A stretch of 45,884 bases of DNA from a virus. Of this stretch, positions 11,568 through 16,858 are shown piece by piece. How positions within the stretch are numbered: the first letter of the stretch is position 1; every line of letters starts with the position of its first letter. Made by a program: the position numbers and the translations under genes. The stretch is taken from the IMG/VR virus record IMGVR_UViG_3300030380_001336, positions 1-45,884 of that record; one strand, 5' to 3'. The notes below the pieces were generated by a model. It was not told the origin of the DNA. It made no database searches and was given only the letters and a program-made list of their open reading frames with translations.

Positions 11568-11888
11568 CTAGTTTTCCATAGATTTTGCTACTTCTAATGC
11601 CTGTCCAACTGGCGATGCAAAGCTCCCATCCTCATTTTTGCAACAGCTTTCTGATAGTTCAGATAGTTCAATACCATTCTGTAATGCGATACTAACTAGT
11701 ACACCTAAGTCATATAATAATCCATCCATATCACTTCCAGATTTACCTCTAGCTGTGTAGAACATTTCCTTTATTTTTTCCTTATCATCATAACCGACAC
11801 TGCAATAGAATTTACTTCCCATGACATTTTGAATTGAGAAAGTTTCATTAATACGTCTGTTAACTAATTTTGTTCTATTATTGCTCAT
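11568..11888 (-). CDS. TSCPD-domain protein (ribonucleotide reductase C-terminal-like)
   Basis: About 106 aa from ATG 11888 (AAGGGGG lies 11 nt upstream); the upstream extension overlaps the previous gene and is unlikely. The pattern RRINETFSIQNVMGSKFYCSVGY..., GKSGSDMDGLLYDLGVLVSIALQNGIELSEL and a final GQALEVAKSM fits the TSCPD domain found at the C-terminus of class II ribonucleotide reductases and as stand-alone proteins. No catalytic reductase subunit occurs in this window. It may modulate nucleotide metabolism or a host reductase. It is the last early gene before the late promoter region. Confidence 0.75.
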   Translation of the reverse strand: MSNNRTKLVNRRINETFSIQNVMGSKFYCSVGYDDKEKIKEMFYTARGKSGSDMDGLLYDLGVLVSIALQNGIELSELSESCCKNEDGSFASPVGQALEVAKSMEN

Positions 11889-12387
11889 TGAAAAATAAAC
11901 CCCCTTGCTGATAATGATATACATTTATATCTCTTTTAGATTTACTTTTCCATACATTTAAATGGTGTTTGCCATTTCTTTCACCTAGTTTTTTCCATCC
12001 TACAGCCGACCAGAAACTATTACTTTGCAAATCAGTAGCACAGCCACACATAAAATTAAATCTACCATAAGTAATTCCATAGTTAACTCCTTCAGTTAAT
12101 ATTTTCTTACCTCTTTCAATCATTCTAGCATCTTCCTGTATGGCTATTTGTGTAACTCTTGCCCATTTGCCAAAAGACATAAGTAAATACCCAACAAGGT
12201 CTTTATTCTCCTCTATAACCCATAACTTGTCATTACAAGTAGTAGACCACCTATTATTAGATTTCTTTTGACCAGTTATTGCACTTTCAAATGCCATTGT
12301 TGGTAAAAAACCTAAACTATTTGTCTCTTTTTTTCTTAAATGTTCAATATACTTTATATCATTTAGTTTAGCATATCTAACAAGCAT
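11878..12387 (-). CDS. GNAT-like acetyltransferase-fold protein
   Basis: About 169 aa from ATG 12387; a TTG at 12405 lies further inside the previous gene. It starts MLVRYAKLNDIKYIEHLRKKE, a typical GNAT opening, followed by LWVIEENKDLVGYLLMSF (strand 4-like), VTQIAIQEDARMIERGKKILTEG (the acetyl-CoA loop region, though the Q/RxxGxG/A signature is degenerate) and FWSAVGWKKLGER near the end. Similar phage proteins are annotated as N-acetyltransferases. The degenerate pyrophosphate loop means catalysis is uncertain. Its 10-nt overlap with the initiator gene shows operon membership. Confidence 0.65.
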   Translation of the reverse strand: MLVRYAKLNDIKYIEHLRKKETNSLGFLPTMAFESAITGQKKSNNRWSTTCNDKLWVIEENKDLVGYLLMSFGKWARVTQIAIQEDARMIERGKKILTEGVNYGITYGRFNFMCGCATDLQSNSFWSAVGWKKLGERNGKHHLNVWKSKSKRDINVYHYQQGGLFFNEQ

Positions 12388-13237
12388 TTTGAATTTTTCC
12401 TTCAATGATTAATCTTTTAACATGAGAAGAATATGCTCCATTGCTAAATCTTTCTCTTTCTTTTTCAGTATCAATATTATTCCAATATTTAACAACCCAA
12501 TCATCTATACTTTCTGCTTCACTCTTTTCTATAACTATTTCATCATTGTATCTTTTCTGATTAAGCCATGTCTTAGCTTGTGGTATAAACTTTTTATCTG
12601 CACCCACTTGAGATTTTGCAAACTGCTTTGTCTTTTCTAACAAATCACCATACTTTATTTCTTTGAGTGATTGCTGAAACTTTAAATAAGCACCATGTTT
12701 ATTATCATTTGGTCTATCTGGGTATTCTTTCCAGAACTCTTCAAACTCTTCTGAATATCCATTCTTCTTTTTCTTATTAAGAAACATTCCAGAATATATC
12801 ATCTTTCCTAACTGTTCATCCTTATCTTCTGAATTATTACTATTATTCTTTTTAAGGTTAATAATATTACTGGTTATATGGGGTGTCTGTGTGACACTAG
12901 GGGGGGTGTCACTGTGATACAGGGGGGTGTCATTCTGACACTGGGGGGTATCAGCATGATACTCTATGTTAAGTAAGTACAGATTACTGGTCTGTCTGTT
13001 GTTGTTTTCACTCTCAATAAATCTTCTTTTAATCTTTAATAAACCATTTTTTTCAAGTGAATTTATGCATCTAATAACTGTTGATTTACTTAATTCAGTT
13101 ATATTGCAAAGTGTTTTAATACTGGGGAAACATTCATTCTTGTCATTTGCAAAGTTTGCTAATGATAAAAGAACCAGTTTATTATTTCCAGAACCAGCTT
13201 TTTGTTTTGATGCCCATGCTAGTGAAGTCCAACTCAT
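12377..13237 (-). CDS. Replication initiator, lambda O-like winged helix protein
   Basis: About 286 aa from ATG 13237, which overlaps the preceding TGA as ATGA. Residues 1-110 form a winged helix typical of phage replication proteins (LAWASKQKAGSGNNKLVLLSLANFAN, FPSIKTLCNITELSKSTVIRCINSLEKNGLLKI). The middle segment (about 105-130) is a Thr/Pro repeat encoded by the iterons. The C-terminus has the EEFEEFWKEYPDR...AYLKFQQSLK...FIPQAKTWLNQKRYND pattern shared by many O/DnaD-like proteins. It should bind the internal origin and recruit the host helicase, since no phage helicase or loader is seen. Confidence 0.87.
   Translation of the reverse strand: MSWTSLAWASKQKAGSGNNKLVLLSLANFANDKNECFPSIKTLCNITELSKSTVIRCINSLEKNGLLKIKRRFIESENNNRQTSNLYLLNIEYHADTPQCQNDTPLYHSDTPPSVTQTPHITSNIINLKKNNSNNSEDKDEQLGKMIYSGMFLNKKKKNGYSEEFEEFWKEYPDRPNDNKHGAYLKFQQSLKEIKYGDLLEKTKQFAKSQVGADKKFIPQAKTWLNQKRYNDEIVIEKSEAESIDDWVVKYWNNIDTEKERERFSNGAYSSHVKRLIIEGKIQNAC
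12880..12962. other. Candidate replication origin: GC-tract iterons inside initiator gene
   Basis: Repeated units of TGAYAC, a short spacer, a G5-7 tract and TRTCA. TGAYAC occurs at 12892, 12915, 12936 and 12957, and the TRTC elements start at 12884, 12907, 12928 and 12949, so the period is 23, 21 and 21 bp, about two helical turns. One pair forms a perfect inverted repeat GTGACAC/GTGTCAC (12891-12897 and 12906-12912). An AT-rich stretch (about 12775-12880) lies on one side. Iterons plus an AT-rich unwinding region within the initiator gene copy the lambda O/ori plan. Confidence 0.8.
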
Positions 13238-13788
13238 ATCCAACCAATCTCCGTTTTTCCATTGTAACCTTTTTCCCAAATAAACCAAGCAAGGCAAAAC
13301 ATTCCCTTGCCTACGTTTTCATCTCCGTTCTTACAGAGACTTATTCTTCTTGAAAAAACCCAAACTCTTACTGGTGGTTTTTCCTCAAAAAATTTCCTTC
13401 TTTCCAACCCTTCTAAAAATGTAATCTTTAAAAGTAATGCTACCTTTTTCTCTGCTATCCAGACAGAATGTTTTGCAAACTCCAGAGCATTTTTATATGG
13501 TGGATTAGTAATTATATTATCTCTTTTTTCAAACTCCATCAAGAAATCTATTCTACTTGTTCCATATCCTCTATCCATCAAGTCCGAAGATTCTACGTTA
13601 TAACCTTCCTTGACTAGGTGTTTTGATATATGTCCTTCACCACAGCATGGCTCAAAGATATCTCCTTCAAACTTTTCTACCTTTAAAAGCGATTCTAAGG
13701 CTTCTACAGGGGTGGAATAGTAATCATCCTTCTCTCTATCCCCTTTGAGATTTATACCCATTATCTGTCTTGCTACAATAGATTTCAA
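13234..13788 (-). CDS. Adenine-specific DNA methyltransferase-like protein (NPPY)
   Basis: 184 aa, TTG 13788 overlapping the previous TGA as TTGA with GGGGG upstream. Near the N-terminus it has DYYSTPVEALESLL, then the SAM-binding loop IFEPCCGEGHISKHL (about 44-58) and the catalytic motif ITNPPYKNA (95-98 NPPY), then FLEGLERRKFF. This is the compact gamma-type N6-adenine methylase layout found in many phages. It lacks a recognisable target-recognition domain, so specificity cannot be read. It is coupled to an MT-A70-type gene, making a two-methylase pair just upstream of the initiator. Confidence 0.85.
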   Translation of the reverse strand: MKSIVARQIMGINLKGDREKDDYYSTPVEALESLLKVEKFEGDIFEPCCGEGHISKHLVKEGYNVESSDLMDRGYGTSRIDFLMEFEKRDNIITNPPYKNALEFAKHSVWIAEKKVALLLKITFLEGLERRKFFEEKPPVRVWVFSRRISLCKNGDENVGKGMFCLAWFIWEKGYNGKTEIGWI

Positions 13789-14339
13789 ATTTCATTCCCC
13801 CAATAATCCCATCCATCTGAAAACAAACCAACATTTCTAGCAAATAATTCTATTCTTGGTAAATCACCACTTGTTTTAACAATCAAATCTTTTACAATCA
13901 TTGGTTTTTTTGAATGAGCTTTTGGATTAACTTCTTGAAACATATTTCTAGTAGTTTTATTAATACATTTCATTTTTCCTTTTACACCAAAAATAATATG
14001 CTCAGTGCAACCACGAAAATAATATCCCATTCCCATTTCTGGAGTTCCATCTTTATATGTTTTAATCCAAGTAATTAAGGTTTTATAATCAAATCCCCAT
14101 GATTTACAGACCTTTAAACCTTCTTGAATAAATGGATTAGTAACCCATAAATATAAATGTGCTTTTTCTGAACAAATGTTTTTTACATCTAAGTTGCAAA
14201 TTTCATCATTTGACATGGTATCATAGCTAACTTGCCCATTACCCCAACTCTCTTTATATTGCCAAGCTGGGTCAGCATAAATAATATTATATTTTTTATT
14301 TGGAAATGGCATCATTTTAGATTTTTTTACTAATGTCAC
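13785..14339 (-). CDS. MT-A70-family adenine methyltransferase
   Basis: 184 aa, ATG 14339 overlapping the DUF1064-like stop as ATGA. It begins with the typical KYNIIYADPAWQYKE; DPAW (23-26) stands for the family's DPPW catalytic motif. Then come LYLWVTNPFIQEGL, KTLITWIKTYKDG and GYYFRGCTEHIIFGVKG, and a C-terminal RIELFARNVGLFSDGWDYWGNE. All are hallmarks of MT-A70 proteins, which in phages usually methylate N6-adenine of DNA. It may protect phage DNA from restriction or mark the genome. Confidence 0.93.
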   Translation of the reverse strand: MTLVKKSKMMPFPNKKYNIIYADPAWQYKESWGNGQVSYDTMSNDEICNLDVKNICSEKAHLYLWVTNPFIQEGLKVCKSWGFDYKTLITWIKTYKDGTPEMGMGYYFRGCTEHIIFGVKGKMKCINKTTRNMFQEVNPKAHSKKPMIVKDLIVKTSGDLPRIELFARNVGLFSDGWDYWGNEI

Positions 14340-15322: not shown

Positions 15323-15744
15323 TATTCTATCTCCCATCTATAAAATATGTGGTCATTTATTCTTACAGTTCTGGTAAACTTCTCTGACCAGCTTGGTTTT
15401 ACATAATAAGCATGATAATGTGTTGCTCCATTTGTTACATCAAAAAGATACCCTTCCATAACAGCTTCAGCTATGTCTAATGAGAAACCCCAAGACAACA
15501 TATCATCAATCTTTTCTGGTTTACCATCGCACCAAAATGTAAACTGGCATTCCCATTTTATGGGTTTAGTATTATCCCAGCTATAATAGTTACCCTGTTT
15601 TACAACATCACAAACATTATCTGGATAACGATGGTCATGTACTCGCTGTTGAATCGTCTGTGCAACTGCGATTCTGCCCACTGGTGGCTCTCCTCTAGCT
15701 TCAAAATAGATAGCAACAGCCATGCAAGTTATAGCATCAAACAT
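15322..15744 (-). CDS. SleB-type cell wall hydrolase
   Basis: 140 aa, ATG 15744. The N-terminal AVAIYFEARGEPPVGRIAVAQTIQQRV carries the catalytic Glu (E15 in YFEARGE) of the Hydrolase_2/SleB family. VCDVVKQG...QFTFWCDGKP, GATHYHAYYVKPSWS and a final INDHIFYRW complete the family pattern. The enzyme cleaves peptidoglycan glycan strands. No signal peptide is visible, so export would need a holin or leak. It is notable that it lies in the early/replication region, 11 kb away from the lysozyme in the lysis module. Confidence 0.92.
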   Translation of the reverse strand: MFDAITCMAVAIYFEARGEPPVGRIAVAQTIQQRVHDHRYPDNVCDVVKQGNYYSWDNTKPIKWECQFTFWCDGKPEKIDDMLSWGFSLDIAEAVMEGYLFDVTNGATHYHAYYVKPSWSEKFTRTVRINDHIFYRWEIE

Positions 15745-16858
15745 TTGTCTTACCTTCTCGACCTCTTAGAAAGTAATCATGCTCAATGATACCATTCTTT
15801 TTACTGCCAACTTTCATAGGTTGAATCCATATTCTATTACCATCTGGCTTTCTTCTCCAGTGTCCTCTTCTCATGTGTTCTGCTTTAGGACTACCCATAC
15901 CACTGATAATACCTTTATAAACTTTTCTGATATTGGGTTTTGGTAAATCAATCGTAACAAGTTTTAAAGTGTGCTTTGGTGCAATCACTCCGTATCTTGT
16001 ATGGGTTATTTTAGGATTTGTTTTAGCATTGTTATAAACGATATGGTCATAATTAAGTGTACCCAATATAGCGATTATAAGTCTTAAATCACCCTCCATA
16101 GCTTTTAAATCTGATTCAACTTGCTTACTCATAAGTTCATGGTCAAATCCAGTGCCAAATTGCTTGTCAGTTAAAAACATTTCCATTCCAAGACTTTGAG
16201 CAGTTTCAACTCTATTCTGAAACCAATTAAATGACATACGTTCCTTCTTTTCTGCAAGTTGCATAGCTTCTGAATAATTATTGCCCAACAAACTGCTCAC
16301 TGTTTTCTTTTGAGATAATTCTAGAAGTTTTTTATCGTGAATGCTGACATTTCTTTCCCAATCAGTATTCTGTCTAAAATCATCACCAAACTCTTCATCA
16401 TTAGAAAAGTAAAAGCCATTAGAAACACAAACTATTTTGCCATTCTCAAAGTTTTTATCAGCACCATACATTGTGTAAAAAAACTGGTCATTAATCTTTT
16501 GTATGTGATAACCCATCTTAGCAAATGTTTCACCAATTTTGCCTTCCATTGAATTGAGCCTAAAAACCTCATCCCACTCAATCCACATATTATTAAAAGG
16601 TGGTATTGCTCTTTTACCTAATTCAACTAATTTTCTAGGACTTTGTTGTGAAAGCTGATTAGCTACTTCTAATAATTTATTATCAATAAAAAATTTTTGA
16701 GCATCAACTAACTCTCTTCTAGCTTTTCTAGATGCCATCATAGCATTCTTGTTTGTGTCTCTCCTACCAGCTTTTTTATTAGTGCAGTAAGCAAAAACAC
16801 CCCTGTCTGGATTTGATAATCCAGCTAAAACTTGATTTGCAAATAATATTTCTGACAT
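15737..16858 (-). CDS. Conserved-looking phage protein, unknown function
   Basis: 373 aa, ATG 16858. The N-terminus has NKKAGRRDTNKNAMMASRKARREL; the middle is charged and helical; the C-terminus has a distinctive basic-aromatic segment (KAEHMRRGHWRRKPDGNRIW, then GIIEHDYFLRG). HxRRGHWRR...RIWV-type ends recur in uncharacterised proteins of early regions of alphaproteobacterial and marine phages, suggesting nucleic-acid contact. No nucleotide-binding or nuclease motif is evident. It ends 8 nt inside the SleB gene. Confidence 0.75.
   Translation of the reverse strand: MSEILFANQVLAGLSNPDRGVFAYCTNKKAGRRDTNKNAMMASRKARRELVDAQKFFIDNKLLEVANQLSQQSPRKLVELGKRAIPPFNNMWIEWDEVFRLNSMEGKIGETFAKMGYHIQKINDQFFYTMYGADKNFENGKIVCVSNGFYFSNDEEFGDDFRQNTDWERNVSIHDKKLLELSQKKTVSSLLGNNYSEAMQLAEKKERMSFNWFQNRVETAQSLGMEMFLTDKQFGTGFDHELMSKQVESDLKAMEGDLRLIIAILGTLNYDHIVYNNAKTNPKITHTRYGVIAPKHTLKLVTIDLPKPNIRKVYKGIISGMGSPKAEHMRRGHWRRKPDGNRIWIQPMKVGSKKNGIIEHDYFLRGREGKTNV

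Follow-up and report, generated by a model that had tools for sequence, protein, structure and literature searches.

The repeat array found in the virus record analysed here (the window, a stretch of 45,884 bases) is very probably the replication origin of the phage, a lambda-style theta origin which would be bound by the phage's own initiator and would depend on the host helicase. The iterons span positions 12883-12961 and lie within a winged-helix (HTH_36) initiator gene, beside an AT-rich stretch. An origin of this kind had been placed at 12776-12962 by the original prediction, a range which contains the array and is too wide, the iterons occupying 12883-12961 and the AT-rich stretch about 12828-12878.

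Iteron array and initiator gene of the window

A 25-nt unit was found four times in the window, at 12880, 12903, 12924 and 12945, with spacings of 23, 21 and 21 bp. Read along the minus strand, which is the coding one, every unit consists of a dyad TRTCA-N3-TGAYAC with a C tract after it, and one of the four dyads carries a mismatch. The predicted TGAYAC and TRTC elements, their 23/21/21 spacing and the G tracts were thus all recovered, with four units and tracts of six to seven; in place of the single perfect inverted repeat that had been predicted, two were found (12948-12961 and 12927-12940). The features of the region are as follows.

12377-13237, minus strand: initiator gene, 286 aa from ATG (PF13730, E = 5.9e-16; phrog_270, E = 1.2e-38)
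12971-13231, minus strand: winged-helix DNA-binding domain, aa 3-89 (AlphaFold2 and HTH_36)
13049-13087, minus strand: recognition helix, aa 51-63 (helix 51-63 in the AlphaFold2 model)
13070-13072, minus strand: codon of Arg56, in the recognition helix (R56 invariant in alignment A4)
12758-12958, minus strand: linker, aa 94-160, predicted to be disordered (AlphaFold2), whose codons host the DNA elements
12948-12961, minus strand: iteron 1, TATCATGCTGATAC, perfect dyad (repeat and motif match)
12927-12940, minus strand: iteron 2, TGTCAGAATGACAC, perfect dyad (repeat and motif match)
12906-12919, minus strand: iteron 3, TATCACAGTGACAC (repeat and motif match)
12883-12896, minus strand: iteron 4, TGTCACACAGACAC (repeat and motif match; frame from sequence)
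12900-12948, minus strand: C tracts of 6-7 between the dyads (sequence; like tracts in other phages)
12872-12875, minus strand: AACC box 1, ATAACCAGT (sequence; class-wide GAACC enrichment)
12856-12859, minus strand: AACC box 2, TTAACC (sequence)
12828-12878, no strand: AT-rich stretch, presumed unwinding element, 3' of the iterons on the coding strand
12533-12751, minus strand: C-terminal helical domain, aa 163-235, presumed to be partner-binding (AlphaFold2; function inferred)

With up to one mismatch allowed, TRTCANNNTGAYAC gave 14 matches in the window against 4.5 expected, a number reached in none of 100 shuffles, and eight of the 14 correspond to both strands of the four array sites. The tracts, which are the densest in the window, read on the plus strand as G7 at 12900, G6 at 12922 and G6 at 12943; they are C tracts on the coding strand because the initiator gene lies on the minus strand. 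Iterons 1-3 share one reading frame and encode similar peptides. Iteron 4 is placed 23 bp from iteron 3, so that its frame differs from that of the other three, and in it the DNA word is kept and the peptide is not. The 80-nt core of the array is among the eight most GC-rich 80-mers of the 45,804 in the window, and the adjoining flank reaches 87.5% A+T over 40 nt (12830-12871), both in agreement with the prominent GC-rich core and the AT-rich neighbour originally described. GC skew across the window is monotonic and uninformative on the origin position, because nearly all genes lie on one strand.

Residues 16-67 of the initiator match HTH_36 at 58.5 bits (cut-off 25; Pfam scan), and the whole protein matches the replication initiation protein profile phrog_270 (PHROG profiles, E-value as listed above); by sequence, it is a member of the HTH_36/phrog_270 phage replication initiators. 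In the AlphaFold2 model the pLDDT was 89-96 for aa 1-70 and lower, 55-78, for the wing (aa 71-89), fell below 50 over most of aa 94-158 and returned to 83-94 over aa 161-230. The predicted location of the array inside a winged-helix initiator gene is therefore in agreement with the HTH_36 and phrog_270 matches and with the modelled fold. A search of PDB sequences with the initiator found no relative. The location of an origin in the linker codons could be explained by the tolerance of a disordered linker for a fixed DNA sequence.

Other products of the early region are a Sak-type annealing protein, a PD-(D/E)XK nuclease, an SSB-like protein and two methyltransferases. In the scan of early-region ORFs (some small ORFs fell outside it) no replicative helicase, primase or polymerase was recognised, in line with the reported absence of a phage helicase and polymerase, and no helicase loader of the P type was recognised among the ORFs scanned, with the same scope. 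The 373-aa ORF at 15737-16858 of this region had no significant match in Pfam or PHROG. Two DNA methyltransferase-like genes (phrog_799, MT-A70) lie immediately upstream of the initiator, at 13234-14339, and the first of them overlaps the initiator start by 4 nt; the gene next downstream on the coding strand (11878-12405) weakly resembles acetyltransferases.

Occurrence of the iteron in other phages

A DNA pattern of tract, dyad and tract, blind to the protein, matched 87 viral stretches, many of which were copies of phage P1 repL, the remainder belonging to about 25 other contigs. Two further DNA patterns enlarged the set, and the TGTCA-type iteron was found in about 30 unrelated phages plus P1. 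Nearly all matched arrays sit just 3' of a winged-helix domain; the single-match locus L042 lies in an unrelated gene, and L064 is an ambiguous case. The reversed, non-complemented control of the 15-match pattern gave no match. A scan of bacterial genome contigs gave 14 matches, of which L098, L099, L100, L102-L104, L106 and L110 lay outside initiators and were excluded. Contigs with such an initiator came from Roseibium, Corynebacterium, Pseudonocardia and Escherichia, and the class therefore spans at least two phyla. In one Armatimonadetes MAG (L100, L103, L106, L110) TGTCATTCTGACACCCCC was found joined to TGTCATTCTGAGCGAAGCGAAGAATC outside initiator genes, and these repeats are probably a dispersed chromosomal repeat family.

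The original prediction had proposed that relatives be compared for conservation of the DNA repeats and not just of the protein. The initiators of L122 (46% protein identity) and L060 (39%) keep the iterons with linker peptides different from that of the window, and those of L005-L007 (about 32-35% identity) keep C tracts and TGTCAC half-sites without full dyads. In the TGTCA set, exact dyads in codon phases 0 and 2 numbered 21 and 19 with the C tract on the coding strand, and 17 and 16 with the C tract on the other strand; phase 1, which would put TGA in frame, held no exact dyad, and 13 loci mix codon phases. Because the dyads occupy varied phases and strands, the linker peptides range from Thr/Pro-rich to Gly/Ser-rich. 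The suggestion that the repeat forces a Thr/Pro-rich linker consequently applies to the window, the same iteron DNA encoding Gly/Ser-rich or Val/Thr-rich linkers in other phages. Since the repeat is read in different frames and from both strands, what is conserved is the DNA rather than the protein, and the presence of the repeat in both open frames and on both strands makes it an unusually clean DNA signal overprinted on a coding gene.

In one lineage, represented by L127 and L131, five to six copies of the iteron, mostly with 22-bp spacing, were found outside any gene. These arrays (L127:11869-11990 and the equivalent place in L131) are made of near-identical TGTCATTTTGACACCACCCCAG units, directly follow the stop codon that closes a short winged-helix gene, and adjoin about 36 nt of almost pure A/T. 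Judged from this arrangement, the non-coding array looks like a stand-alone origin.

Half-sites, recognition helix and GAACC boxes

A motif-blind sample of HTH_36 initiators was assembled from a back-translated peptide pattern, PF13730 genome searches and known phages (n = 146 non-redundant, window included), the peptide pattern being chosen because there was no conserved stretch for alignment-based contig searches. Iterated dyads were present in the 260 nt after the winged helix in 74 of the 146 genes, against 1/128 for the winged-helix codons, 0/145 further downstream, 1/142 upstream and 0.14% of shuffled sequences. About half of the sampled genes showed no dyads by the detector used; iterated dyads in the linker-coding segment of these initiators are thus common, as read from the sampled genes, and not universal. 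The gaps between dyads are grouped around 21-24 bp, a second set lies at 15-17 bp, and a G/C run of at least four separates adjacent dyads 18-26 bp apart in 76 of 129 cases, against 9.3 expected.

The half-sites vary by lineage, TGTCA being a minority class. Half-site similarity tracks recognition-helix similarity when the rest of the domain is controlled (partial Mantel r = 0.30, p = 0.0005); in the converse analysis the partial r is 0.22. Arg56 is present in 31 of 32 TGTCA-type loci and in 41 of 142 others, a difference in which relatedness is incompletely controlled. TGTCA-type loci are scattered over a poorly resolved tree of 163 tips, on which at least 21 changes are required, and the underpowered independent-pairs test of Arg56, with four usable pairs only, gave a mean of 3.1 concordant and no discordant pairs. 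Arg56 is a candidate residue for iteron specificity. The sole exception in the TGTCA/TATCA set is formed by L031 and L074, with TATCA-type dyads and Gln at the Arg56 position. Five loci of enterobacterial genomes (L313, L316, L311, L306 and L315) carry another class of iteron, in which dyads such as TCTGAACGTTCAGA recur at exactly 15-bp spacing without G/C tracts, and the recognition helices are of the type GAGRSTVITAI.

The coding strand of 73 loci carries 120 copies of GAACC on the 3' side of the iterons, compared with 9.8 in shuffled sequence, and the opposite-strand control GGTT reached only the top of the shuffled range. The boxes are spaced mainly by 11-12 bp, about one helical turn, and then by 17 bp; all codon phases are used (101/40/20), and more than one phase occurs in 36 of the 55 loci with two or more boxes. 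When viral contigs were searched for three GAACC boxes in a row, 83 of 100 usable matches were located 3' of a same-strand winged helix, at most 700 nt away, and none near one on the opposite strand, many of the remaining matches being simple repeats. In 27 of 31 and 59 of 73 loci, A+T content is higher over roughly the first 40 nt past the iterons than in the winged-helix codons.

The constancy of the boxes beside variable iterons suggests two different readers. We regard it as evenly balanced whether phages of the HTH_36 type share a two-part origin code, with lineage-specific iterons recognised through the recognition helix and common GAACC boxes recognised through a shared factor. Under such a code GAACC-RTCA boxes would lie 11-12 or 17 bp apart on one strand, in all frames and across many half-site classes, and they would be read by a host replication protein or by a conserved surface with which the initiator acts on the opened strand. 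If the code is real, the GAACC box is a previously undescribed and widespread phage origin element. In a search of open-licence papers, neither GAACC boxes nor a TGTCA iteron shared across phages had been described; the boxes are apparently new, and an earlier description is possible, since only open-licence literature was covered. The window has two AACC boxes only, 16 bp apart, and is a weak instance of the element.

Known origins and alternative explanations

In phage lambda, the O protein binds four dyads, which are bordered by an AT-rich flank (PMC7466680). As in the window, the four dyad iterons of lambda ori, of about 18-20 bp, lie midway along the initiator gene, past the codons of the DNA-binding domain, and AT-rich DNA follows on their 3' side; the spacing is 20/24/23 in lambda and 23/21/21 in the window. 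The half-site is TCCCTC in lambda and TGTCA in the window, lambda has no GAACC boxes after its iterons, and lambda O belongs to Phage_rep_O (PF04492), whereas the window protein matches HTH_36 and not PF04492. The lambda-like origin originally proposed is well supported by comparison as an architecture, and the protein is, by its sequence matches, not a member of the lambda O family. SfV, ST64B and AsXd-1 have related HTH_36 initiators, whose genes carry dyads with G tracts at the corresponding place, spaced 21-24 bp, and GAACC boxes after them; unlike the window, they have the half-site GTGCA/TTCAC and Asn or Ile at the Arg56 position.

The annotation of phage P1 places the lytic origin oriL within repL, and the iteron pair of repL lies directly 5' of the AT2 region, in which synonymous changes strongly lower RepL-driven replication (PMC9948254). 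The authors of that 2023 study noted a C/G-rich sequence preceding AT2, the role of which they left undetermined, and were unable to say where RepL binds (PMC9948254). As in the window, oriL has the same dyad word with C tracts (CCCCCATGTCAAAATGATACCCCCTCCCCCTGTCAGGATGACG) directly before the AT-rich element, and the recognition helix of RepL (STVVR) has the same Arg as Arg56. The comparison predicts that RepL binds the TGTCA/TGACA dyads in the C/G-rich stretch before AT2. P1 differs from the window in having two iteron units only and no AACC boxes on the AT2 side, and RepL is a divergent winged helix (phrog_2418, 8.8e-157) with HTH_36 below the cut-off; phrog_2418 was absent from the best 25 PHROG matches listed for the window protein. 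In P1 repL (L132) a perfect DnaA box, TTATCCACA, abuts the first C tract of the iterons on its 5' side.

By analogy with these systems, winged-helix dimers of the initiator would bind the four dyads through the recognition helix carrying Arg56, and the 21-23 bp spacing would place each dimer on roughly the same face of the DNA as the one before it, in a complex like the lambda O-some. Such a nucleoprotein complex would strain the AT-rich stretch with its AACC boxes, 3' of the dyads, and open it; the C-terminal domain may then help to load the host replicative helicase, leading to theta replication by host enzymes.

The array could instead be an operator, at which the initiator represses its own gene or operon while the origin lies elsewhere. 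Winged-helix dimers on dyads are typical repressors, the nearest folds of the window protein are other HTH regulators, and autoregulation could coexist with origin function. We consider an operator unlikely all the same, given that the array is found in mid-gene, past the winged-helix codons, and not at a promoter, in the same place in unrelated phages, that AT-rich DNA and GAACC boxes flank it on a fixed side, and that in P1 it abuts an element needed for replication (PMC9948254). Less probable again is that the C/G tracts are the working part, a G-quadruplex or R-loop priming replication with the dyads secondary. The G/C runs between dyads in many half-site classes would fit such a role, but the coding strand carries the C tract in 19 loci and the other strand in 16, which is ill-suited to a strand-specific structure, and some classes with 15-bp spacing lack tracts.

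That three of the four window units share a frame and encode similar peptides might indicate that the repeats are kept for a Thr/Pro-rich linker of repeated peptides, the DNA repeat being a by-product. The fourth unit in another frame, the different peptides encoded by the same DNA on both strands and in two frames in other phages, the non-coding arrays of L127 and L131 and the predicted disorder of the linker all make this explanation highly improbable. A mobile or slipped repeat, spread among phages and selectively neutral, would account for the scatter of TGTCA-type loci over the poorly resolved tree (21 minimum changes for 163 tips); the constancy of position, spacing and dyad symmetry, the correlation with the recognition helix and the variation of half-sites between lineages leave very little room for it. 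The reading of the array as an origin is preferred to each of these, and the comparison offers a means of finding the origins of many uncultured phages by sequence alone.

The kind of system is already known; what is new is the iteron class extending across phages and including P1 oriL, the association between recognition helix and half-site, and the GAACC boxes. Staphylococcal RepA_N plasmids have iterons inside rep. Neither the Pfam scan nor the PDB sequence search gave a RepA_N match to the window protein. The RepA_N initiators are also winged-helix proteins, and 5kbj and 4pt7 are among the fold matches of the window protein, with a weak similarity (E of about 0.02-0.03).
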